IMG/VR virus record: IMGVR_UViG_3300047550_004474
Coordinates: 1-29,947 of that record
DNA: 29,947 nucleotides
Direction: 5' to 3' (one strand)
DNA from: a virus
The translations under genes and the position numbers were made by a program. Below are positions 5,675 through 18,057 of this stretch, in pieces (within the stretch, counting starts at the first letter, position 1; every line of letters starts with the position of its first letter). The notes under the pieces are model-generated. The model was not told the origin of the DNA, did no database searches, and worked only from the letters and a program-made list of their open reading frames with translations.

Positions 5675-5745
5675 GGGCCTAGCAATCTGGTGAATGCAGC
5701 GGCCTCATAAGCCGCACGAGACGGGTTCGATTCCCGTGGCCCCTA
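5673..5745 (+). tRNA. tRNA with CAU anticodon (Met elongator or AUA-reading Ile)
   Basis: A complete 73-nt cloverleaf can be drawn: acceptor AGGGGCC/GGCCCCT (5673-5679, 5738-5744), D arm 5682-5697 with GG in the loop, anticodon stem GCGGC/GCCGC (5699-5703, 5711-5715), loop CTCATAA with anticodon CAT at 5706-5708, 5-nt variable region, T arm ACGGG-TTCGATT-CCCGT (5721-5737), and discriminator A. CCA is not encoded. The D stem is weak (three pairs). The anticodon stem lacks the GGG/CCC pairs of initiators, so it is an elongator Met or a tRNA-Ile2 needing lysidine. It begins inside the terL stop codon. Confidence 0.88.
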
Positions 5746-6106
5746 TGCATAGGTTCTCGGGTAGCACAGAAGCACCGTAGTCAATTGTATCTGTGAGCAC
5801 GCGCGTCCGTGTCCACCGCCAGATGCGGAGCTCGCGCGCGTGGTCCCAGAACGGTTGCTGGCGGAACCAAACTGCCCAGTAGAGCTCAGACCCTTTAGCG
5901 CGGTTGCAGGCGACGCAGGCTGCTACCAGATTCTGCGCGACAGTGCGGCCTCCTCCACACCGAGGGCGAACGTGGTCGAGAGTGTTAGCCAGCTGACCGC
6001 AGTAGGCGCAGGCCCCATTCCAGGCCGCGAGGATCCCGTAGCGAAAGCGAAGCTTGGCTGTGCGTTTTGAGCAGAGGTGGGACTCATCGATGTGATGGTC
6101 CAGCAT
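5705..6106 (-). CDS. HNH endonuclease
   Basis: Predicted 133 residues on the minus strand. The core has CAYCG (C33/C36), LDHVRPRCGGG (D44/H45), NLV (N59) and CVACNRAKGS (C64/C67/N68). This is the two-CxxC, zinc-bound His-Asn-His nuclease type. HNH genes beside terminases can assist end cleavage, as in HK97-like phages, or can be selfish homing genes. The opposite orientation to all neighbours favours a mobile or separately regulated gene. Its last ~41 bases run antisense through the tRNA, so the final ~13 residues (ATGIEPVSCGL) are simply the tRNA complement. The start at 6106 has only weak G-rich upstream sequence. Confidence 0.85.
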   Translation of the reverse strand: MLDHHIDESHLCSKRTAKLRFRYGILAAWNGACAYCGQLANTLDHVRPRCGGGRTVAQNLVAACVACNRAKGSELYWAVWFRQQPFWDHARELRIWRWTRTRVLTDTIDYGASVLPENLCIGATGIEPVSCGL

Positions 6107-6338: not shown

Positions 6339-8168
6339 GTGGAGGACCTAATTACCGATAACACCCGGAACGACGGGGCACTGGTGAATGTGCTCACGGG
6401 AATGGGGGTAGCAGGGAAAGATAAGACAGTCACTACGAGCGTTACCGCCAAGTATCTATTAAGTGAAGCTGAGCTAGAAATTTTGTATAACGCCGGGATA
6501 CCGCGGCGGTACGTAGATAGCATAGCCGATGAAATTTTAAGGCATCGAGTCACCGTGACTCTAGGTGCGGCAGCGGCTGCGGATGCTGATACTGTCCCTA
6601 AATTTGATAAGTACCTCAGAGACACACAGTTTCATCAGGCGCTAGCTGAAGTCGTGAAATTACAGCGGTTGTACGGCGGAGCCGGAATGGTCCTGCTGAT
6701 AGACGACGGGCAAGAAGCTAGTGACCCCGTAGATATAAATCGTATAAAAGCAGTACGTGGCTATATACCACTATCACGACACGAACTGATACCTGAAGAT
6801 TTCACAGTCACCGATTACTCAAAACCTACCTCTTACAGAATCACCACAAGTCAACGTATAGAAAACACACAGCGTTCAAGCTACGTCAACTTTCCTATAC
6901 ACGCTTCTCGCGTGGCCAGATTTGACGGATTGTATTTACCCTGGAATCAAAGAGTCCGTAACACAGGGTGGGGCATGAGTGTACTCCAACTCTTATGGGA
7001 CGCCTTTAAACGCTATGAGTCGGCGCTGGCCGGTTTAGAGGGTATGGTTCAAGACTCTGACGTATTCGTCCACAAAATCCCAGGCCTCTTTCAAAGGCTT
7101 GCTGCGGGTAACGAAGCTGATTTGCGCAAGCGCCTAGAAGCTAACAGTCTTAGTCGTAGTGTCTATGGCGGTATTGTCGTAGACACTGAAGAAGATGTTA
7201 ATTTCCTCAGTCGTGCGTTGTCTAATATCGCAACTGCCACAGACCCTTTTGTAAGAGATTTACAAGCGGCCACAGGATGGCCTAGCACGATCTTGATGGG
7301 AGAGTCTCCAGGCGGACTCGGAAAAGAAGGCCGCTACGAGGAGCGGGTGTGGGCGGCTCTTGTAGAGCAATGGCAAGACGTCTATTGTCGCACTCCCGTA
7401 ACAGAAATTTTTACCTACATATTGGCGTCAAGAGAAGGACCCACCCGAGGACGACCTCTAGAGTCCTGGTCCGTTCATTTCCCTAATATCTTTACTCAAA
7501 CCGATGCCGAAAAGGCCACGATCCGTGGTCAGATAGCACAAGTAGACTCGCAATACATAAATCTTGGAGTTTTGAACCCAGTAGAGGTGAGACAAGCGCG
7601 CTTTGGTAACACAGAGTACTCTATCGAGACTCCGCTAAACGAAGTCGTAACAGAGCAGCTTGCTGCGCAAGCCGACGCTCAGTTCCAAGCTCAGATGCAA
7701 GGGCTTAAGGCACAAGCTGAGGCTGCACAAAATCTCCCAGCGGAAGGCGCTGAGCCGGAGGAGGAAGAAGGTCCTGAGCCGGAGGAGGGAATTATCCCCG
7801 AGTCCGGTACGAAACGCGATAGCTTTGACTTTTACAGCGCGCACGGTCTTCGTATCCGAGTAACACACACCGAAGGCCAAATTAAAGCCGGATATCTTGT
7901 AGGACCGGACGGACAGCGCACAGACAGTAGCACGAACGCTCCGTTAATGGTGTTCGGACCTAATCGGACACGGGCTTACAAGCTCTACCGCGCGCAGTTC
8001 TATCGGGGAGATGAGCTCATTCCGGGCCCGTACGTCGCGGGCTTCGCTTCCATGCGCACCGCCCGCGCGGGGGTCGCCGCACTGTTTTCACGGCAGAATG
8101 TGGCAGGGCTTTCCCCTGTTCCTGCGGGTGAAATCGAGGCCCTTCGTGCCGGTTGGGAGACCTACTAA
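6339..8168 (+). CDS. Portal protein (DUF1073-like) with C-terminal extension
   Basis: Predicted 609 residues from a GTG start. The portal forms the dodecameric ring at the head vertex through which DNA passes. YGGAGMVLLIDDG (~112-124), WGMSVLQLLWDAFKRYESAL (~215-235) and GWPSTILMGESPGGLGKEG...ERVWAALVEQWQ are typical of DUF1073-type portals. After a Gln/Ala-rich helix and a Glu-Pro-rich linker (~475-490), an extra domain from about residue 490 to the end begins KRDSFDFYSAHG, and I do not recognise it. Codon use is AT-ending and ATA-rich (DINRIKAVRGYIP is read with ATA throughout). No Shine-Dalgarno precedes the start. The stop overlaps the next ATG (TAATG). Confidence 0.88.
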   Translation: MEDLITDNTRNDGALVNVLTGMGVAGKDKTVTTSVTAKYLLSEAELEILYNAGIPRRYVDSIADEILRHRVTVTLGAAAAADADTVPKFDKYLRDTQFHQALAEVVKLQRLYGGAGMVLLIDDGQEASDPVDINRIKAVRGYIPLSRHELIPEDFTVTDYSKPTSYRITTSQRIENTQRSSYVNFPIHASRVARFDGLYLPWNQRVRNTGWGMSVLQLLWDAFKRYESALAGLEGMVQDSDVFVHKIPGLFQRLAAGNEADLRKRLEANSLSRSVYGGIVVDTEEDVNFLSRALSNIATATDPFVRDLQAATGWPSTILMGESPGGLGKEGRYEERVWAALVEQWQDVYCRTPVTEIFTYILASREGPTRGRPLESWSVHFPNIFTQTDAEKATIRGQIAQVDSQYINLGVLNPVEVRQARFGNTEYSIETPLNEVVTEQLAAQADAQFQAQMQGLKAQAEAAQNLPAEGAEPEEEEGPEPEEGIIPESGTKRDSFDFYSAHGLRIRVTHTEGQIKAGYLVGPDGQRTDSSTNAPLMVFGPNRTRAYKLYRAQFYRGDELIPGPYVAGFASMRTARAGVAALFSRQNVAGLSPVPAGEIEALRAGWETY

Positions 8169-11100
8169 TGAACAACCTGACGCCCGAAGGGTCCCGTGCT
8201 GCGACCTACCTGGCCACCCGAGAGCGTATCGATGCGCGTAAAACCACGCGCAATATCCAGTGTACGCCTCCAAATGTGCGCTGTGGTAATCGGTGCATCC
8301 CCCCTACATGGGATTGCCGCCTTAAGGGGCAAGGTACTGACCCTCATCTCCGTGCAGTTAAAACTGACCCCTTAGGAGGCCTTGCTAACATCCAGCGAGG
8401 GTTCGGGCGTATCAGTAAAGGGATCATAAAGGGTAATTTTTCAGAGGTTGAAGGAGGTAAGCGAGCCATCATTAGAGGCTCAGTTAAGATCACCCCTGGG
8501 AACATTCAGCAGAAGAAAGACCTACAGAAAAAGCTTGAAAATAAGACCCGAGCTATAAGTATAGGTCTCGCCGTCGTTACCGGAGGGCTAGGCATTCACG
8601 CGTTGTTTATGAAGAGCAACACGTTTGGCTATCGTGATGGGGTGGGGGCGAACATCAATAACGCGGTGCGTCTAGGTGTTAATAAAGTTCTAGATTCTAT
8701 GCCAGTAATCGGTGCTAACCGAGAGCGAGTGCGCGCACGAGTGGTCGGGGGTGTACAAGCAGAACTTAATAGACAGCAAAATCCAGTTTCAGCACAACTA
8801 ACGAACCAATTATCACGAACTCGTCCGACAGCGGCGGATGAAGATAGCCGGTCTAATCTGGTAAAAAACCTCGCGGCCGTAAATCGCGAGTTTAGCGGGG
8901 CGACCTCCGACTTTTACGCTTGGGACCGCGCACACCAGCGCGCGTTTTGGTCTACATCCAAAGTTGAGGTAGGTGTAGGGCTCGAACGTGGACAGCGGAG
9001 TAGTATATTCGCCCGCCCCGCCACAGACGAATTTCTAGCGCGTCAATTCCAGCTCCAAGGCGATGATACGCTCACCCCCCAAGCGATTAAAGATGGTATT
9101 ACGCGGAAGCTAACCGAGTACAAAAGTGATTTACTCGATCTAGCTCAGCAGCAGGGGTTCAAAGTTGAGACGGTAAGCGGCGGAGGGCGCACTCTAGTCC
9201 AGCGAGATCGCCGGACGTTCATTCAAGGCGTAGTAAGCTCTACTCTCCCCAAAGGGCAAGCTAACAATCGTGTACGTGCGGCGTTAACCACACACTTAGA
9301 ACAAACGCTGAGCCAATCGCCAAGGACATTAACTAACACCATATACAGGGATACTTATACTGGGTTTAACAACTTTTACATGAGCAAAGCCTCTACGATC
9401 GAAAGTGCGACAGAAGAGGCGTTTTTAAGCCGCCAAATGCGAGAAACGGGTGCGGGGCAGACCTTGCTCGATGCTCGTCAGGCCCGGGCGGCGTTCGTAG
9501 CTGGGCGCGACGTCGCAGGCCCGGCGCACGCCGAACTCGTACTGCGCCAGTATCACGCCCAAACCGTGCGCGGAACCCCCCGCACCTTGTTCAGTGTCAC
9601 TGATCGCCTGGCTACAGCCGCCGCGGCCGAGATCGAGGGGCGCGCTGTGCGACCGAGCGAAGCATTCGGTGTGCTCGAGCGCGCCGGCATATCCGGTGCA
9701 ACACCGAGCCGCGCTCCCGCGCGTGCGCGTAGCCCGCGACGTTCCCCCGAGGGCGAGGCCGTCTACAACTTGATGCGTGAAAACCCAGGTATGACGTTGC
9801 AGGCTGCTCGGCGCGAGGTGAAGCGCCGCCGTGGAGACGAATCCGACGTACCCCTCGAAGTCACCCGCACTGCGACCTACCTCGCGGCTCGCAGAGACTT
9901 CAAGGAGGGTTCAGGCCGGGGAAAGCCTTGTGGCGCCTCGCACATCCCGCAGGCGCATGAATGTCGTAAGGGCGGGGGAGCATTTACTAGCGGGGCTGAT
10001 CAGAAACGTAAACTCGCGACCATCGCTGCAGTAGCGGGGGGTGCAGTCGCTCTTGCTGTCGCCGGTACGGTCGCTTACAACCTAAAGACGCTAAGTGACC
10101 CAACAAAGTCACCCCTATCTGCGAGCCCCAGCGTTAAAGATCTTGTCAAAACCATGAAACAAGAAGCTGGCACCAAAAGCGCCAGTGAAGCCATGGGGTA
10201 TTACTACACGAAGAAATCAGGATTGAAGCCAGGGGATGTTGTCTACTACCGTAATGAAAAAGACTCCGCCGCTCACTTTGGTATCTACCTGGGGGAAGGG
10301 AAAGACGGCAAGGTCCGCGCCGTTATCGCCAACACAAATAGTTCGCGCTTCAGCTGGGCCGATGTCGCCGAGATCGGAGCGACTAAGCCAGGTATCAAGA
10401 CCTCTCAAGCTTTGATGACTCCTCTGGTCAAGGCCCCTGATCCAAAGTTCAAAGCTAAGACAGGCACTCCCTTTACCAATGAAGAAGTCGTCAAGCGCGC
10501 CATTCGTATTGTCGGTACGGACTACAAGTTCTCTCTAACCCGCGACAACTGCGAAGCACTGGCCAATGGCATTGCGTATGGCGTGCCCGAATCCGAGCAA
10601 CTTCAACGATTCCGCCGTGCGACCCGCGCAGTCGTCGACGTCGGCGTGGGACGTAGACAGCGTCGCGAAGCCCGCGAAGCCATCTACACCGGTCGCACCC
10701 GAGGCCGTAGTTACACCGCATCCGAGTTCGTTACCTTCCTCGAAGGTCAACGTGAGTTCAGCTCGTCCGCTGGGAAAGAACTAGCCAAGCAGTACTCGCA
10801 GTATTTCGAGGGCGCTCGTCTCGACGCGCAGAACACCGGCGGGAGTTTGATCAGCCCCGACGAGCTTTGGTCGCGCATTAAGCCCTATGGCCCGGCGCTG
10901 CGCGCCCAGGCAATGGCGGACTATTTATTGATATTGGCTACCATCGGCGCAAAATCCAATCAACAAAAACTACGAAGCGACGCAAAAGGCAAAGCCTGTG
11001 GTGAGAGCTTTATACCTAAGACTCACGAGTGCAAGAAACAAGCTGCTAAGACTGTGGCAAAAGTTGCTCTTGCGGCTGGGGCTATCGCCGGTAGTGCCTA

Positions 11101-12007
11101 CGCTCTAAAGCGCGCCAAGATCGGGGAGTTCCATACCGGTGTTATGACCGGAAATGTGGGGGGCTTGCGAAAGCGGCGCATGAGCTACATGGAGAAGAAC
11201 CAGCTGGCGGTTAACAGCACCCAGCTCGCCGCAACCTTCAACGGTCTCAAAGGGCAAAAAGGCGTCACCCCGAAGAACGTCGATGCTCTACAGAGCTTCA
11301 TCAAAAAGAACAATATCGTCAACGACCCCTCTAAGTTCTACAAAGACCTCGAAGACAGCATGAATGACCAGGTTAAGGTTATGACCCCCACTCAAGTGAA
11401 GCAGCAGCTTACTCAAGTGAAGATGCTGAATAATCTCGGAGGATTTGACGGCCTAGCTTCGCAATACAGCAATAACATCTATGTGCGCAGCATACGCAAA
11501 AATAGCACCAAGCTTGATGCAGATCCCTCGCTAGTGACCGGCGCGGTGAAAGACTTTATGACCATGCGCTCTATCAATCAAGATATTAGTCCTGCAGATA
11601 AAGTCCGCTTCAAAAAACTATTTACCATATCGGGTGGTACCAAAGACGGAGATACCGCCGAATACATCAATACAATTCACGAGATCTCCCATTTGGTCCA
11701 CTTCAAAGCAAGCAAAAACAAAGGGTCTTCGGCCGACAGCATAGGCATGGGCAATGTTTACAATCCTAAGAATAGTCGAGAGTTTTTCATTAAAAACAAA
11801 CTTGACTACAAACAAGGCTTGGTCGAGCTGGATAAACAGCTAATGGCTGCGTCATCTGGCTACGGGCGGTCAGACATCAATGGGCGTCAGGCCGAAACCT
11901 TCGCCGAGCTTTCAGTCCTGTACGTTGCGCAAGGTGAAACATTTAAACGTCAGTACCCGCTTGCCTATGCTTGGGTGGATGACATCTGGAGGACAGCCAA
12001 TGGCTAA
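8168..12007 (+). CDS. Giant head-region multidomain protein: Cys boxes, LRAT/NlpC-like domain, HExxH peptidase-like domain
   Basis: Predicted 1279 residues between portal and MuF; no single family is recognised. It reads as three units, each opening with ATYLA- or ADYLL-like sequence and a Cys box. Unit 1: C32/C39/C43/C50, hydrophobic 130-148, then a helical region. Unit 2: C588/C599, membrane-like 615-636, then an LRAT/NlpC-P60-like domain with AHFGIYLGEG (H703) and DNCEALANGIAYG (C795), the His-Cys pair used by thiol acyltransferases and peptidases. Unit 3: C944/C955, hydrophobic 961-980, then a C-terminal domain with HEISH (1171-1175) and AETFAE (E1243/E1247), the layout of a gluzincin-type zinc peptidase. 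The location suggests a head-internal or ejected protein. Enzyme activities are inferred from motifs only. Confidence 0.8.
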   Translation: MNNLTPEGSRAATYLATRERIDARKTTRNIQCTPPNVRCGNRCIPPTWDCRLKGQGTDPHLRAVKTDPLGGLANIQRGFGRISKGIIKGNFSEVEGGKRAIIRGSVKITPGNIQQKKDLQKKLENKTRAISIGLAVVTGGLGIHALFMKSNTFGYRDGVGANINNAVRLGVNKVLDSMPVIGANRERVRARVVGGVQAELNRQQNPVSAQLTNQLSRTRPTAADEDSRSNLVKNLAAVNREFSGATSDFYAWDRAHQRAFWSTSKVEVGVGLERGQRSSIFARPATDEFLARQFQLQGDDTLTPQAIKDGITRKLTEYKSDLLDLAQQQGFKVETVSGGGRTLVQRDRRTFIQGVVSSTLPKGQANNRVRAALTTHLEQTLSQSPRTLTNTIYRDTYTGFNNFYMSKASTIESATEEAFLSRQMRETGAGQTLLDARQARAAFVAGRDVAGPAHAELVLRQYHAQTVRGTPRTLFSVTDRLATAAAAEIEGRAVRPSEAFGVLERAGISGATPSRAPARARSPRRSPEGEAVYNLMRENPGMTLQAARREVKRRRGDESDVPLEVTRTATYLAARRDFKEGSGRGKPCGASHIPQAHECRKGGGAFTSGADQKRKLATIAAVAGGAVALAVAGTVAYNLKTLSDPTKSPLSASPSVKDLVKTMKQEAGTKSASEAMGYYYTKKSGLKPGDVVYYRNEKDSAAHFGIYLGEGKDGKVRAVIANTNSSRFSWADVAEIGATKPGIKTSQALMTPLVKAPDPKFKAKTGTPFTNEEVVKRAIRIVGTDYKFSLTRDNCEALANGIAYGVPESEQLQRFRRATRAVVDVGVGRRQRREAREAIYTGRTRGRSYTASEFVTFLEGQREFSSSAGKELAKQYSQYFEGARLDAQNTGGSLISPDELWSRIKPYGPALRAQAMADYLLILATIGAKSNQQKLRSDAKGKACGESFIPKTHECKKQAAKTVAKVALAAGAIAGSAYALKRAKIGEFHTGVMTGNVGGLRKRRMSYMEKNQLAVNSTQLAATFNGLKGQKGVTPKNVDALQSFIKKNNIVNDPSKFYKDLEDSMNDQVKVMTPTQVKQQLTQVKMLNNLGGFDGLASQYSNNIYVRSIRKNSTKLDADPSLVTGAVKDFMTMRSINQDISPADKVRFKKLFTISGGTKDGDTAEYINTIHEISHLVHFKASKNKGSSADSIGMGNVYNPKNSREFFIKNKLDYKQGLVELDKQLMAASSGYGRSDINGRQAETFAELSVLYVAQGETFKRQYPLAYAWVDDIWRTANG

Positions 12008-13100: not shown

Positions 13101-14039
13101 ATGCCTCGTTCAACCAAGTCACGCCTACCTCTGGAGATGGAGCCCGGCGAAGGTCGATCCCACGAGATGGGAGAAACTCCTGAGGAAGAGATCCGCGAAG
13201 GCGCCGAGCCTGACGATGCTCCGAGGGTCAGTAAGAGCCGCAGGCGCAGCGCCCGGGGAGCCTCCCGTACCAAAGCTCCCATGGACGGCGAAAGTTGCTC
13301 CTGCGGCGGGTGCAAAGGAAAAGGCACCTACGATGGGTGCAGTGGAAACTACGCCAAAAAGATGGACGCCCTAACCCCTCAGGAGTACCTCGGCGCTTGC
13401 GACCTCGGTGTCCAAGGCCGCAGCCGCTCCTACATCCGAGCTCGACTCGATGCCGCGGAGCGCCTCGACCTCAAGTGCGGCAACGGCTCCATCTCCCCCG
13501 GAGAAAAGTGCACCAAAGGTGAGGCAACAAAGGCAGAGCCGACCCTTCGCGATCTTCGGAATGACCCTTATGGCGAAGGTAGGAAGTTTTGGCAAACCCC
13601 AGGTTCTACCAAGGGAGCCGGTAACAAGATCAAACGCGCTGGTGAGTTCGCGGCCAATCTTGGCGCCGGTGTCGCCGTAGGCGTAGGGAGCATGCAACTA
13701 GTAGAAGGTATAATGACTGGGAATATCGGCAAGGCATCACGCGGTCTTAGAAATTACAACTTGGGCCTTGCTGCGGGAAGTCTTGCGGGTGCTTCGCGGG
13801 CGGCCCGTCAAGGCAACAAAAAGCTTTCCAAGGAATACGCGGCTCAAGCGGGCAAGCTCGCTGCGTTCGGCGTCGGGCAAGAGGCCGCCCTTGGTGCAGT
13901 GGCCGGCTTCAAGCGCGCCGGCGGCGCTGCAGGTGTCGGCCGCAGCGCTCGCCGCGCCTACCAGGAAGCTCGGATGCGCACTGCCGGTATGCGAACCATG
14001 AAGCGCGACTCCGTCTGGGCCGAGGGCTTCGCACTGTGA
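13101..14039 (+). CDS. Cys-box head-region protein with RDSVWAEGF tail
   Basis: Predicted 312 residues. It has an acidic, disordered start (EPGEGRSHEMGETPEEE), then a Cys cluster (C66, C68, C71, C80), the Cys box CGNGSISPGEKC (C126-C137), a long Ala/Gly-rich region from ~180 containing GVGSMQLVEGIMTGNIGK, and the tail KRDSVWAEGFAL. A similar GVMTGNVGG segment follows the third Cys box of the giant protein, so the two share ancestry in this part. The stop overlaps the GTG of the next gene. Function is unknown; position suggests a head-associated protein. Codon use is strongly GC-rich. Confidence 0.75.
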   Translation: MPRSTKSRLPLEMEPGEGRSHEMGETPEEEIREGAEPDDAPRVSKSRRRSARGASRTKAPMDGESCSCGGCKGKGTYDGCSGNYAKKMDALTPQEYLGACDLGVQGRSRSYIRARLDAAERLDLKCGNGSISPGEKCTKGEATKAEPTLRDLRNDPYGEGRKFWQTPGSTKGAGNKIKRAGEFAANLGAGVAVGVGSMQLVEGIMTGNIGKASRGLRNYNLGLAAGSLAGASRAARQGNKKLSKEYAAQAGKLAAFGVGQEAALGAVAGFKRAGGAAGVGRSARRAYQEARMRTAGMRTMKRDSVWAEGFAL

Positions 14040-14068
14040 TCCTCACCCCCGCCACTGTCCGCATCGAC
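14004..14068 (+). repeat. Copy 1 of a 65-nt junction repeat
   Basis: These bases encode the tail of one gene and the first eleven codons of the next. They match 15046-15110 at 62 of 65 positions by my alignment. The three differences are Val/Ile, Leu/Pro and GTG/ATG start. The register is the same in both copies. Confidence 0.92.
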
Positions 14069-14557
14069 CTCAAATGCGGCAAAGGCGCTATCTCCCAAGG
14101 TGAGAAGTGCCATGTAGGTCAAGCGCAGCAGGTTAAACCCATCTCAAAAGAGAGTATTCTGCGCTCCGGGTTCAATCTTCACAACGGTAAGCGTCTCAGC
14201 AATGCGATGATCCGTAAACTCGAAAGAGAGGCGGTTAAATACGAAAGGGCAACAGGGAAAGCCGTAAGTTTTACGCCTGAGCAGCGAGCGGGGCTAATGC
14301 TGACCAGAGGCACTGCGACACGCAAACTGGTGTCCTCACAATTTATCCCCGCGCGCTCTAGGGATCTTAATAACGCGATCAAAGCTTCTAAAGGTACACA
14401 GGATCCCGAACGCTATGCTCTACGTGAATTGGCGAAACGGGAGCGGTTTAACCGCCGTGTGAATGCGGCAGTGCTGGCAGCCTCTATCGCGGCCCCCCTT
14501 GGCTACATTGCTGCTACTCGTCCGGATTCCGTCTGGGCCCGCGGTTTCGCACCATGA
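14036..14557 (+). CDS. Cys-box head-region protein with RPDSVWARGF tail
   Basis: Predicted 173 residues from a GTG overlapping the previous TGA. The first eleven residues (MILTPATVRID) are identical to those of the gene at 15078. The Cys box CGKGAISQGEKC spans C14-C25. The middle is a basic helical region (AMIRKLEREAVKYERATGKAV is shortened here), followed by a hydrophobic segment at ~142-160 (NAAVLAASIAAPLGYIAA) and the tail RPDSVWARGFAP. Here the hydrophobic segment sits beside the tail rather than beside the Cys box. Function is unknown; the gene looks like one cassette of the array. Confidence 0.72.
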   Translation: MILTPATVRIDLKCGKGAISQGEKCHVGQAQQVKPISKESILRSGFNLHNGKRLSNAMIRKLEREAVKYERATGKAVSFTPEQRAGLMLTRGTATRKLVSSQFIPARSRDLNNAIKASKGTQDPERYALRELAKRERFNRRVNAAVLAASIAAPLGYIAATRPDSVWARGFAP

Positions 14558-15081
14558 GCGTGACTCCGACCACTATCCGTGTTGCAGCGAGCGCTCAGCC
14601 AAGTTGCGTGCGTAGCGATGTCTTCATCGGTAACAAAAAGCTGAACTGCGGTCCTGGCTCCAAGCCCTGCGGCAACGCCTGTATCCCCAAAGACCACGAG
14701 TGCAGGGCTTCGTGGAACAAGCCGGTCAAGCTGGCTGCCGGCGCAGCGGCTCTTACCGGGGCCGCAATCGTCGGCACTGCGTTTCTCCACCCGAGAGCGA
14801 ACATGCGCAGCGCCGCTCGTTCTGTGATCGACCCGGCCCTGCAGACCGGCTTCGGCATAGGCAATGTGGCCCGCGGCAACTGGGCCGGTGCTGCGAAGAA
14901 TGCCGCCAACGTGGCAGCTACAGGCCAGGATCTCGGTAAGAACCTCAGCACCCTCGCTAAGGGCTACGGCACCGACATCAAAGGAGCAGTCAACCGAGTG
15001 CGTAATGCTGCGTTCAAGTGGCGCAATCACCGCCCCGCAAAGCGTCGCGACTCCATCTGGGCCGAGGGCTTCGCACCATGA
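14554..15081 (+). CDS. Four-Cys-box head-region protein with RRDSIWAEGF tail
   Basis: Predicted 175 residues. The start overlaps the preceding stop (ATGA). The N-terminus MSVTPTTIRV is a diverged version of MILTPATVRI. The box is the four-cysteine form, with C32, C39, C43 and C50 (CGPGSKPCGNACIPKDHEC). These are the same four residue numbers as in the first box of the giant protein. A hydrophobic Ala/Gly-rich segment follows at ~57-77, then Gly/Ala/Asn-rich sequence and the tail RRDSIWAEGFAP. The stop overlaps the next ATG. Function is unknown. Confidence 0.75.
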   Translation: MSVTPTTIRVAASAQPSCVRSDVFIGNKKLNCGPGSKPCGNACIPKDHECRASWNKPVKLAAGAAALTGAAIVGTAFLHPRANMRSAARSVIDPALQTGFGIGNVARGNWAGAAKNAANVAATGQDLGKNLSTLAKGYGTDIKGAVNRVRNAAFKWRNHRPAKRRDSIWAEGFAP

Positions 15082-15110
15082 TCCTCACCCCCGCCACTGT
15101 CCGCATCGAC
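15046..15110 (+). repeat. Copy 2 of the 65-nt junction repeat
   Basis: This is the partner of 14004-14068, offset by 1042 bases. It again spans gene tail, stop/start overlap and the first eleven codons of the next gene. Recombination between the copies would remove the two genes between them and leave an intact gene pair. Confidence 0.92.
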
Positions 15111-16196
15111 ACCCCCGGTCGCGCCTGCGGCCAAGGCTTCATCTCTGCCAGCAAGACTTGCCGTCAGCGCGGAGCCTTCCCCAAAGGCAAGGCAATCGCT
15201 GCGGGTTTAGGTGTGGCTGCCCTCGGGGTGGGGGCCTTTGCGCTGTCCCGACGCAGGGGGAGCGCTACCCCCGGGGGTGAGGCATCGCCCGCAGGCTCCC
15301 CTCGTCCACCCGGGGGTGGGGCGGCGCCCTCAGGTCCACCGCGTCTGCCTGGCATCACTCCCAAAGCTCTCCTCTCTCCCGCACCTCCGCGCCAGTCCAA
15401 GACCCAGCGGATGCGCGCGAACACTGCCACCGCGGTGCGCAACGCCGAGGGCGCCATCGCCCGAACAGCCCGTGAAGAAGTCCGCCGCATCGGCCAGATC
15501 GGCAACACCATGGCCGCCGCCGGTGAGGCTGCAGGCATGGCCACCAAGACCACCTTGCGCGAGCTCCGCCTCCGCGCCGAGGCGGCCCGCCGCCGCTACG
15601 AACCCGGCTATCGCGCCCCCGATCAACGTCGCCTACCCGGCGGGATCCAGGCCCCGTTCTCCCCTCGCGAGCGCACCTCCGAAGCCGTGCCTATCGATCC
15701 CCGCACTGGCCAACCGCGTCGGCGCAAAGCGCGCGGCTTCGGGCGCGCCGACAACTACATCCAGACTTACGCCCCGGTACGAATCCAACCACCGACCCGT
15801 CGTGATGCCTGCTGGGAGGGTTACGTCCAGGCCGGTATGAAGCGCAAGGGCAAGCGCGAAGTGCCCAATTGTGTCCCCGCCTCCTCCGGGCTCAGCAAGC
15901 CCCGAGCTCAGAAGGACACCGAGGATGACAAGAAGTACACCAAAACCGTCACCAATCCCGAAACCGGTCGCAAAAACAAGGTCCGCTACGGCGCCAAGGG
16001 CTACCGCATTGCCCCTGGCACCGATAAAGGCGACCGTTACTGCGCCCGTTCTTTCGGCGACATGAAGTCCGAGGGCTACGACTGCTCCGGCGCCGAGCGC
16101 AACACACCCTTGTGCCTCTCGCGGGCGAAGTGGAAGTGCTCCGGTAAGTCCAGTCGCCGCGATGGAGCCCCCACGCCGGGAAAGTCCTCGGCCTAG
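15078..16196 (+). CDS. Cys-box protein fused to cyanophage-type CWxGY / KYGAKGYRIAPGT (DUF6321-like) regions
   Basis: Predicted 372 residues. MILTPATVRID opens the protein, followed by the Cys box CGQGFISASKTC (C17-C28), a hydrophobic segment at 39-57, a Pro/Gly-rich linker (60-105), a basic helical region (108-175), then DACWEGYVQAGMKRKG...VPNCVP (243-267). The last part is KTVTNPETGRKNKVRYG...YRIAPGTDKGDRYCARS (~289-325), ending in SRAKWKCSG. I associate the last two blocks with structural-region proteins of marine phages (DUF6321-like, from memory). RRDACWEGY resembles the RDSxWAEGF tail of the neighbours. Start ATG 15078 is set by the ATGA overlap and the repeat. Confidence 0.78.
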   Translation: MILTPATVRIDTPGRACGQGFISASKTCRQRGAFPKGKAIAAGLGVAALGVGAFALSRRRGSATPGGEASPAGSPRPPGGGAAPSGPPRLPGITPKALLSPAPPRQSKTQRMRANTATAVRNAEGAIARTAREEVRRIGQIGNTMAAAGEAAGMATKTTLRELRLRAEAARRRYEPGYRAPDQRRLPGGIQAPFSPRERTSEAVPIDPRTGQPRRRKARGFGRADNYIQTYAPVRIQPPTRRDACWEGYVQAGMKRKGKREVPNCVPASSGLSKPRAQKDTEDDKKYTKTVTNPETGRKNKVRYGAKGYRIAPGTDKGDRYCARSFGDMKSEGYDCSGAERNTPLCLSRAKWKCSGKSSRRDGAPTPGKSSA

Positions 16197-16501
16197 TGCG
16201 CAACGACGCCCCCGAGGGCCGCTCCACCGAGTACTACCGCACGCACCCCGAGGCCGCCGCCAAGAAGGTGCGCCACCAGGCCGAAATCAACCGTCGCCCC
16301 TCTGAACGCAAACGCCGCGCCGAACTCAACCAGGAGCGCCGCCGCCGTGGCATCGCCGGCAAAGGTGGCCCAGACATCTCCCACACCGAGGACGGAAAAA
16401 CCGTCCTCGAGGAGCCCTCTATCAATCGTGCCCGCAACGGTCACGGCACCAACCCCCGCCTAAAGCGCGACGCAATCTGGGCCGAAGGATTCAGCCCTTA
16501 G
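16196..16501 (+). CDS. STEYYR-type phage protein with RDAIWAEGF tail
   Basis: Predicted 101 residues from a GTG overlapping the preceding TAG (TAGTG). The sequence (STEYYRTHPEAAAKK..., RPSERKRRAELNQERRRRG, DISHTEDG) is highly basic. It matches a small protein type I have seen beside the KYGAKGYRIAPGT-type protein in marine phages; its role there is unknown. The extra C-terminal KRDAIWAEGFSP is the array tail. There is no Cys box. The stop TAG shares bases with the stop of the minus-strand XRE gene (TTAG serves both strands). The charge suggests DNA or RNA binding, possibly inside the head. Confidence 0.78.
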   Translation: MRNDAPEGRSTEYYRTHPEAAAKKVRHQAEINRRPSERKRRAELNQERRRRGIAGKGGPDISHTEDGKTVLEEPSINRARNGHGTNPRLKRDAIWAEGFSP

Positions 16502-16749
16502 AGGCCACGCAGCAGGTCTTGCAACGAAAGCCCATAGATTTCGCTTAGTGTAAACAGCTTAGATAAAGAAAGCTCAACTTCTCCTTGTTCGAGTCGACTA
16601 TAAGCAGCTTGGCTTATAGAAAGAATTTCTGCGATCTGTGCTTGTGTGAGACCGGCATGTTCCCTGAGCCCTCGGATACGTCGGCACACCGCCAACTGTC
16701 TGTGGATTGCCACTGCCGCCGTATGCGCTAGCCGTTTAAGCTTACTCAT
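16498..16749 (-). CDS. XRE-family transcriptional regulator
   Basis: Predicted 83 residues from ATG 16749, preceded on its strand by GGGGGT. The frame stays open further upstream to 16914, but that would run into the protease gene. Residues 34-57 (LTQAQIAEILSISQAAYSRLEQGE) are a textbook XRE helix-turn-helix, and SLSKLFTLSEIYGLSLQDLL is the usual supporting helix pair. It is the only minus-strand gene in the head-tail operon. Its start lies 27 bases from the protease start, so it could bind the shared gap and control itself and the downstream late genes. A lone antitoxin relic is an alternative; no toxin is adjacent. Confidence 0.85.
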   Translation of the reverse strand: MSKLKRLAHTAAVAIHRQLAVCRRIRGLREHAGLTQAQIAEILSISQAAYSRLEQGEVELSLSKLFTLSEIYGLSLQDLLRGL

Positions 16750-16776
16750 ACCCCCAAAAACACGTAATCTGGTGGG
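16750..16776. promoter_or_regulatory. 27-bp divergent gap between XRE regulator and protease gene
   Basis: The whole space between the two divergent start codons is 27 bp. It contains a 5-bp inverted repeat (ACCCC at 16750, GGGGT at 16774) whose arms act as the Shine-Dalgarno-like G-runs of each gene. No clear -10/-35 pair is seen. An operator here is plausible but unproven. Confidence 0.35.
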
Positions 16777-18057
16777 GTGGAAACACCTTCTGCCTACCGC
16801 TACGACTTCGCACCCATCACGGGAAGCGAGCCCACCGAGGAGGGCTACCTCCGTGTCTGGTGTCGTGCGGCGCGCACGGGGACCCAGGTCTACCGGCGTG
16901 CTAATGGCATTCAAGTCCGTGAGTACAGACCTCCCGAGGAGGTCAGTTCACCGGACTCTCTTTCCACGTTCGGGATGAAACCCGCTACGTGGGGGCACCC
17001 TCCTGTCCTTCTCGACTCAGCAAACACGAAACAGTACCAAATTGGTTACTCCGGTAGCCAAGTGCGGTACACCGATGGTTTTGTTGAGGTTGCATTGGTC
17101 ATCACTGATCAAGATGCAATCACGAAGATAAAGCGCAAAGATGCCACTGAGGTGTCCGCCGGTTACAAGGTCGACTTCGACCCGACCCCCGGGATAACCC
17201 CCGAGGGTGAGGAGTACGCCGGTGTCCAGCGCAACATCAGGGTCAACCACATCGCCATCGTCCCCCGTGGCCGCGCCGGCCCGGAGGTACGACTTCTCCT
17301 CGATCGTATGGACGCTGCCGATGGCATCGCTGTTGATCAGGAGCTCACCCGCACTCGCGGATCGGCGCCCCAGTCCAGTTCACCTGCATCTCCCGTTATG
17401 GCCACCGTCAAACTCGACGGCCTGGAGATCGATCTGCCCGCAGAAGCAGCTACCGCGGTCCAGTCCTTCGCACGGGACATGGAGCGTCAGCTGCAAACTG
17501 CAATTAGTGAGCGCAACGAGCTTAGCGATAAGCTCGATGCTGCGCAGGCAGAGATCGATAGCCTCGCCATTGAAAAAGAAACCGCCGAAGGGCGCGCCGA
17601 CGCTCTCGAGGAGCGGATCGTGGAACTTCAGTCGGACGACGCGCGGATTGATACCGCCGAACTCGACACCCTCGTTGCCCGTCGTTTGGCAACACTTCAG
17701 AAACTAGCACCTGCGTTCCCTGAAGACTTCAAGTTCGACGGCATCGACGATGACGAGCTTTACGCTCAAGCCTTCGAGAGCCTGACCGGCTCTGCTCCCC
17801 CCGAGGACGCCCCCTCCTCTTACATCTACGGTGTGGTGGATGGTGTTCTGGCTGTCCATGCTGACGCCTCCGACGACCCCTCCGATGGAGCGGACGAGGG
17901 TGAAGACCCTGACGAAGATGAATCAGCTGCTCGGGGAGACAGTAGCGAGACTCTGCGCAGCGCTCTGCGTGGTGTCGGACGCCCAGCTTCTCCTGTAACA
18001 GCTTACCGTTCTCGGCAAGCTGAAGCCTGGAAGCGCCCCCTCACCGCCACTAAGTAA
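16777..18057 (+). CDS. Prohead protease (DUF2213-like) fused to scaffold domain
   Basis: Predicted 426 residues from GTG 16777. The N-terminal ~180 residues match DUF2213-type proteases: YLRVWCRAARTG, GHPPVLLD (H74), EVSAGYKVDF (S127) and NHIAIVPRGRAG (H158). The candidate His/Ser catalytic residues are H74 and S127. It would cleave scaffold and capsid during head maturation. Residues ~208-300 (starting MATVKLDGLEIDLP) form a long coiled coil typical of scaffolds, and the C-terminus is acidic and low-complexity (DDPSDGADEGEDPDEDE). An internal ATG at 17398 could give a separate scaffold product, although no good ribosome site precedes it. Confidence 0.88.
   Translation: METPSAYRYDFAPITGSEPTEEGYLRVWCRAARTGTQVYRRANGIQVREYRPPEEVSSPDSLSTFGMKPATWGHPPVLLDSANTKQYQIGYSGSQVRYTDGFVEVALVITDQDAITKIKRKDATEVSAGYKVDFDPTPGITPEGEEYAGVQRNIRVNHIAIVPRGRAGPEVRLLLDRMDAADGIAVDQELTRTRGSAPQSSSPASPVMATVKLDGLEIDLPAEAATAVQSFARDMERQLQTAISERNELSDKLDAAQAEIDSLAIEKETAEGRADALEERIVELQSDDARIDTAELDTLVARRLATLQKLAPAFPEDFKFDGIDDDELYAQAFESLTGSAPPEDAPSSYIYGVVDGVLAVHADASDDPSDGADEGEDPDEDESAARGDSSETLRSALRGVGRPASPVTAYRSRQAEAWKRPLTATK

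Follow-up and report, generated by a model that had tools for sequence, protein, structure and literature searches.

The window analyzed here, 29,947 nucleotides of the IMG/VR virus record IMGVR_UViG_3300047550_004474, carries between a MuF gene and a DUF2213 protease-scaffold gene a cassette (13101-16501) in which four genes end in one ten-residue consensus, [RK]xD[SA][VI]WAxGF, plus two residues. With moderate confidence we propose that this tail serves as a C-terminal propeptide for head loading and that a site of the prohead protease lies before it, RxD↓[SA], where the arrow marks the predicted cut (all features lie on the + strand unless stated otherwise). The tails, each closed by the stop codon, are KRDSVWAEGFAL of gene 13101-14039 (14001-14039, core KRDSVWAEGF-AL), RPDSVWARGFAP of gene 14036-14557 (14519-14557, core RPDSVWARGF-AP), RRDSIWAEGFAP of gene 14554-15081 (15043-15081, core RRDSIWAEGF-AP), and KRDAIWAEGFSP of gene 16196-16501 (16463-16501, core KRDAIWAEGF-SP). 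The distance from core to stop is exactly two residues in all four, confirming the initial annotation, which had described four genes ending within two residues of D-[SA]-[VI]-W-A-x-G-F. Chance is ruled out as the origin of the tails, since amino-acid composition predicts about 7e-7 core-bearing C-termini in the window against 4 seen, and in related records 13 of 40 cassette genes but none of 831 others end in this way.

Related loci were gathered by scans with the protease, the portal and the 16196 protein (about 110 loci) and by two DNA-pattern scans for the core, giving in total 296 loci that represent roughly 140 clusters of near-identical contigs. The scan patterns contained no stop codon, so that the position of the tail was not selected by the search. 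Among 162 distinct core-bearing open reading frames (ORFs) from these loci, the core stands exactly 2 residues before the stop in 51 and exactly 9 before it in 84 (135/162), and 71 of the 97 matches of the W-pattern scan lie no more than 5 residues from a stop, which, as far as sequences tell, makes the terminal position a fixed one. The short form of the tail has W (DS[VI]WAxGFxP), while the long one, 17 residues accounting for 84 of 144 tails, mostly has Y (DS[VI]YAxGFxxxxxxLA[IL]) and ends mostly in LAI, IAL or LAV. Two loci, L146 and L148, carry the tandem tail DSVWADGFTIDWDSIWAQGFQP, suggesting that the DWDSIAL end of the long form may have arisen from another core copy. The initial annotation had proposed to look for the tail at C-termini across head regions, and in 11 long records (50-72 kb) all strong tails indeed fall between MuF and the protease: 13 of the 40 genes located there are tailed, as against none of the 831 elsewhere (Fisher p ~5e-19). 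Two of these records scored zero, one having the core internally in a fused ORF and the other (L093) a DGIWAKGF variant near the C-terminus. The tail as a widespread bacterial motif is likewise ruled out, because a slightly longer pattern gave only 14 chance-level matches in about 85,000 bacterial and archaeal species (one genome each), none of them ending a credible ORF. The nearest isolate, S-CBS4 (54% identity in the major capsid protein (MCP), 38% in the protease), has no tails, and the tail-bearing group consists of uncultured cyanophage-like viruses, whose host is probably picocyanobacterial, judging from S-CBS4 and from cyanophage homologues.

Constraint on the tail acts on the protein, since identical core residues are encoded by different codons in 49% of comparisons between unrelated families; the protein keeps D, S, W, A and F while the choice of codon is free. 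This bears directly on the reading in which the tail is an artefact, with GAG-GGC as the ribosome-binding site of the gene that overlaps downstream, or with the repeated DNA of the junction as a recombination sequence. The junctions do have ATGA/GTGA overlaps and a 65-nt repeat (14004-14068) spanning tail, overlapping start and LTPATVRID, with a copy of 95% identity at 15046-15110 and a weaker one at 14522-14586; such a repeat could aid module exchange. Nevertheless, gene 16196-16501 is tailed although the next gene is convergent, so an overlapping start codon cannot explain its tail, and the form with the core nine residues from the stop shifts the sequence away from any start. Together with the codon variation this largely refutes the artefact reading, which we consider extremely unlikely.

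The characterization of the tail bearers as otherwise different proteins holds for their middles, which are dissimilar, and requires amendment for their N-terminal parts, since the proteins of 13101, 14036 and 14554, together with the tail-less 15078, have a common RxD...CG module. In the window its copies are CGNGSISPGEKC (13476-13511, RLD before it), CGKGAISQGEKC (14075-14110, RID), CGNACIPKDHEC (14668-14703, RSD) and CGQGFISASKTC (15126-15161, RID). The pattern C-G-x-x-x-I-x5-C occurs in 125 of 144 tailed proteins and is preceded by R-x-D, in many as LTPATVRxD.KCGKG. Of 329 CG modules, 284 (86%) have an RxD in the 20 residues before them, versus 12% of random windows, with a variable spacing that is expected of a linker motif; an N-terminal RxD as a general trait of tailed proteins was found in only 45% and hence is not relied on. 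Between module and tail the bodies fall into about 25 groups without mutual similarity detectable by blastp; they are strongly basic (+13 per 100 residues), often rich in Ala/Gly and hydrophobic, with a 19-residue hydrophobic stretch in 30-48% of them versus 0-11% for terminase, portal, MuF, protease and MCP. One might therefore ask if the cassette genes are simply old duplicates of a single tailed CG-module gene, the tail being a functionless relic, as the frequency of the module and the junction DNA repeated at 95% over 65 nt between 14004 and 15046 would allow. Under descent alone, however, it is hard to see why the middles diverged beyond detection while the core stayed nearly fixed despite the codon differences, and the phrog_6437-type protein of 16196 gained a tail without having a CG module; we hold this account to be very unlikely. 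Tails are absent from the homologues of that protein in P60, S-CRES1 and S-CBS2, whose genes neighbor those of lysozyme, structural or other late proteins. One body family occurs with either tail form, and relatives of the 14554-15081 protein bear the short or the long tail on the same body. Such distributions point to transfer of the tail between unrelated bodies.

Natural fusions are the most telling evidence for a boundary at RxD. In at least three unrelated bodies fusion to a following module retained [RK]xD and usually dropped the tail, with the break exactly after D. A body that ends unfused in KMKRSD-SIWAAGFEP continues in fused forms as KAKRTD-AEGIPCGASYIP (L069), KTKRTD-ADGRPCGASYIP (L062) and KAKRTD-AARSKPCGESHIP (L158), the junctions reading KAKRTD/AEGIPCG in L069 and KTKRTD/ADGRPCG in L062. 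The 16196-type body is fused as RLRQD-SPEAAKGKPCG (L106 and L224) or LRAD-KKGKKCG (L109 and L110), and a third body as ARARRD-AFIGNKKLNCG (L179), where the upstream RxD coincides with the RxD of the next module's N-terminus. Retention of RxD with loss of the aromatic part implies that the two halves of the tail are separate. A permanent docking motif, in which the uncleaved tail binds portal, MuF, shell interior or scaffold and RxD belongs to the binding surface, would leave this pattern unexplained, as it would the recurrence of RxD[AST] without the aromatic part in the scaffold. It is true that W/Y-A-x-G-F/W resembles an aromatic docking motif and that the tails of one phage resemble each other, across unrelated bodies, slightly more than expected (7 of 300 permutations were as high), a weak co-variation that is no more than suggestive given the coarse clustering of records. 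On the whole we regard permanent docking as unlikely.

The predicted cutter of RxD sites is the DUF2213 protease-scaffold (16777-18057; PF09979 6e-41, phrog_530 1e-80), in which a helical scaffold comes after the DUF2213 domain (residues 222-286 form a helix in the model). Across 79 protease orthologues, S-CBS4 included, no other X.Y pair in the scaffold half, a part that prohead proteases destroy, is conserved as often as R.D, which occupies six columns with A, S or T as the next residue (RMDA, RADA, RIDT, REDA, RAD[AS] and R.DS); the window's own scaffold has lost R at two of the six (columns 342 and 361). Its predicted sites are RMDA at the boundary of protease and scaffold (17305-17316; RxD in 77/77 relatives), RADA (17593-17604) and RIDT (17644-17655) within the scaffold, and RGDS (17932-17943) in its acidic variable linker. 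Most scaffold RxD sites lie at helix ends or in linkers of the low-confidence model. Another RTDS is found in the C-terminal region of the portal (7917-7928; RxD-S conserved 53/53). The cement and tail-tube proteins have no well-conserved RxD site. From these patterns we predict R-x-D↓S/A as the cleavage specificity of the DUF2213 protease. No variation occurs at its H74, S127 and H158, a trio that would match the Ser-His-His arrangement of assemblin-type proteases. Apart from these sites, RND is conserved near two N-termini, at residue 10 of the portal (gene 6339, 54/54) and residue 6 of the MCP (gene 18696, 66/67); both are possibly further protease sites, though P1' varies.

Several observations weigh against a propeptide cut at RxD. 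RxD is conserved also in structured parts of portal and MCP, so that not every RxD can be a cleavage site. In Pam3, a distant DUF2213 phage, the portal, minor capsid, scaffold and major capsid proteins have no RxD[AST], and S-CBS4 has the scaffold RxD sites yet no tails. Some fusions retain the core internally (L126, L092, L106 and L031). The model of the protease is poor (predicted local distance difference test score, pLDDT, 55), unfit for docking or fold assignment, and a fold search with it gave nothing significant, T4 gp21 appearing only at E ~0.9. A tblastn search with the 13101 protein and the long ORF (8153-12007) against 50,697 phage records found no match, leaving the group without an isolated member. 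Finally, cleavages by the prohead protease of SPN3US give N-terminal propeptides, except for the protease's own C-terminal one (PMC10052503).

In the mechanism that we propose, late proteins encoded between MuF and the protease-scaffold would carry the tail for uptake into the prohead, where it probably binds the scaffold core or the inner shell. The DUF2213 prohead protease would then cut R-x-D↓[S/A] directly before S[VI]WAxGF and release the tail, much as T4 gp21 removes capsid-targeting sequences, and the mature cargo would be ejected into the host. The suggestion of a targeting or docking signal tied to the prohead or the DUF2213 protease, made in the initial annotation, is strengthened insofar as only genes between MuF and protease have the tail and homologues outside such cassettes lack it; virion location, packaging, binding partner, cleavage and ejection stay at the level of prediction. 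That annotation had seen neither the RxD retained in fusions nor the 17-residue tail form nor the common N-terminal module. An alternative would place the activity of the tail after ejection, as a degradation, membrane or partner-binding signal in the host. The L-A-I/L/V end of the long form, present in 84 of 144 tails, loosely resembles a protease-adaptor degron, and the basic, Ala/Gly-rich bodies with their frequent hydrophobic stretches would fit a role in the host cell. Yet the short form ends in xP, the best-conserved part is internal, and restriction to one interval beside the protease would find no explanation, which makes such a role distinctly unlikely.

Among known systems, encapsulin cargo-loading peptides are short conserved C-terminal peptides that follow a flexible linker, bring varied cargo into an HK97-fold shell and are not cleaved. 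The tail is similarly C-terminal, short and conserved on varied cargo; it differs in sequence and in its setting of a virus prohead, its neighbors being tailed-phage genes (terminase, portal, MuF, DUF2213 protease-scaffold, cement and MCP) and not those of an encapsulin shell. The comparison with T4 capsid-targeting sequences, drawn already in the initial annotation, is apt, with the tail at the opposite end. In T4 internal proteins an N-terminal sequence of 10-20 residues attaches to the core and is subsequently cut off (PMC7411985). In T4, as here, a short peptide stands on differing proteins, which are head cargo in T4 (IPI-III and Alt, processed by gp21) and presumed cargo in the present case, beside a protease motif of the P3-x-P1(acidic) type, a predicted one in the present case, and the phage encodes prohead protease and core (PMC7411985, PMC9026906). 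The tail is seen on some 25 groups of bodies, all encoded between MuF and protease, and the predicted cleavage motif RxD↓[SA] precedes it and recurs in the scaffold. The differences are its C-terminal location, with the core 2 or 9 residues from the end in 135/162 ORFs, a predicted R-x-D in place of the T4 site L/I-x-E, the lack of sequence relation, and packaging and cleavage that are predicted here. The tail would work like a capsid-targeting sequence without being a member of the N-terminal T4 kind.

Cleavage after P3-x-Glu is common to T4 gp21 and its relatives in giant phages, with a preference for Ser at P1' in the case of SPN3US gp245 (PMC5694885, PMC10052503). With the phiKZ/SPN3US protease gp245 (A-X-E↓S) the predicted site has in common an acidic P1, one free residue, a fixed P3, a preference for Ser at P1' and multiple sites per substrate, whereas the propeptides of ejection proteins in those phages occupy the N-terminus, and most of them are long, reaching 254 residues. 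The SPN3US protease itself has a propeptide at its C-terminus, which is presumed to direct it to the core (PMC7411985, PMC10052503). In P1 a short terminal peptide sends the large cargo protein DarB into the head and works on a reporter, but the signal lies within the N-terminal 30 residues and Dar proteins have no consensus (PMC9024508). Since R-x-D↓[SA] has the same layout as the P3-x-Glu sites, and given the T4 and P1 precedents, we propose the tail as a loader that would be cut at RxD.

Polyvalent proteins and MuF polymorphic toxins have exchangeable effector domains (kinase, zincin, hydrolase) beside portal or MuF and are thought to be packaged and injected (PMC5512222). The modules described here differ in being separated by RxD and in being, in many cases, stand-alone genes with a common terminal tail. 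No toxin domain is fused to the C-terminus of the window's MuF protein (304 residues), which has no effector domain or other second annotated domain. The polyvalent type is represented by the long ORF 8153-12007, which combines an LRAT/NlpC-like domain with a zincin-like HEISH motif and three CG modules and has no tail, and by a candidate packaged kinase of locus L101 (L101:6980-10294), whose 1105 residues comprise two RIO/APH-like kinase domains and three CG modules and end in the tail. Domain identification in related cassettes and long ORFs yielded RIO/APH/Kdo-like kinases, a DnaJ domain, LRAT/NlpC-P60 and HExxH motifs. More tentatively still, we envisage an open "cargo bay", in which any late gene acquiring an RxD-S[VI][WY]AxGF tail at its C-terminus would have its product loaded into the prohead, shortened by the maturation protease and carried into the host, with unrelated effectors (kinases, hydrolases, membrane-active proteins) swapped through conserved junctions as single genes or RxD-separated polyproteins. 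Tail-less proteins with kinase domains also occur in the same interval (L155:2108-3616, L206:15854-17353, L220:12629-14095 and L308:2489-4105), the L220 kinase being fused behind a phrog_6437 domain. The long ORF is polyprotein-like, and its last module is variable or absent in relatives, a kinase taking its place in L117 and L287.

As to the remaining features, the head genes of the window follow the order terminase (4193), portal (6339, Phage_portal_3), long ORF, MuF (12136) and cassette, after which come a convergent small regulator, the DUF2213 protease-scaffold, a cement protein of the Pam3 gp6/E217 gp24 family and the MCP. The first cassette protein (13101-14039), for which Pfam and PHROG searches gave no match, consists of an acidic N-terminus, a KMD/ALTPQEYL.ACDLG region, the CG module, a Gly/Ala-rich basic middle and the tail. 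The second (14036-14557) has the prefix MILTPATVRID, CG module and tail, and the third (14554-15081) CG module, a hydrophobic Ala/Gly helix, a basic region and tail; the structure model of the latter is of low confidence (pLDDT 44) and too poor for docking or fold assignment. The tail-less protein (15078-16196) starts with the same MILTPATVRID prefix and CG module and ends in KWKCSGKSSRRD-GAPTPGKSSA; the related internal RRDACWEGY noted in the initial annotation is present in it at 15798-15824. The protein contains a domain KxYxKxVxNPxTGRxNxVRYGAKGYxIAPGT...KWKCSGK with this RRDACWEGY, assigned to DUF5872 in relatives and found also in several PHROGs of unknown function. In the small basic protein of the phrog_6437 family (16196-16501) the tail is appended beyond the family's domain. 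The convergent regulator (16498-16914, - strand), a small helix-turn-helix protein, stands between cassette and protease; in many relatives a gene of about 71 residues occupies this position, and S-CBS4 likewise has a regulator there. An HNH-endonuclease-like ORF (5705-6106, - strand), assigned by reading the sequence, lies between terminase and portal on the opposite strand.

In the open-licence literature we found no description of the tail or of an RxD specificity, nor a paper on DUF2213 in connection with protease and scaffold; R-x-D↓S/A is thus put forward for a DUF2213 protease where our search found no specificity for such proteases. Known head-packaging tags come from very few phages, mostly T4 and P1, and are N-terminal, those of P1 having no consensus. 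A C-terminal, sequence-definable and apparently transferable tag would let head cargo be predicted in uncultured phages, would supply a ready-made peptide with which proteins could be packed into virus heads, and would single out candidates, kinases among them, for effectors injected during infection of cyanobacteria.

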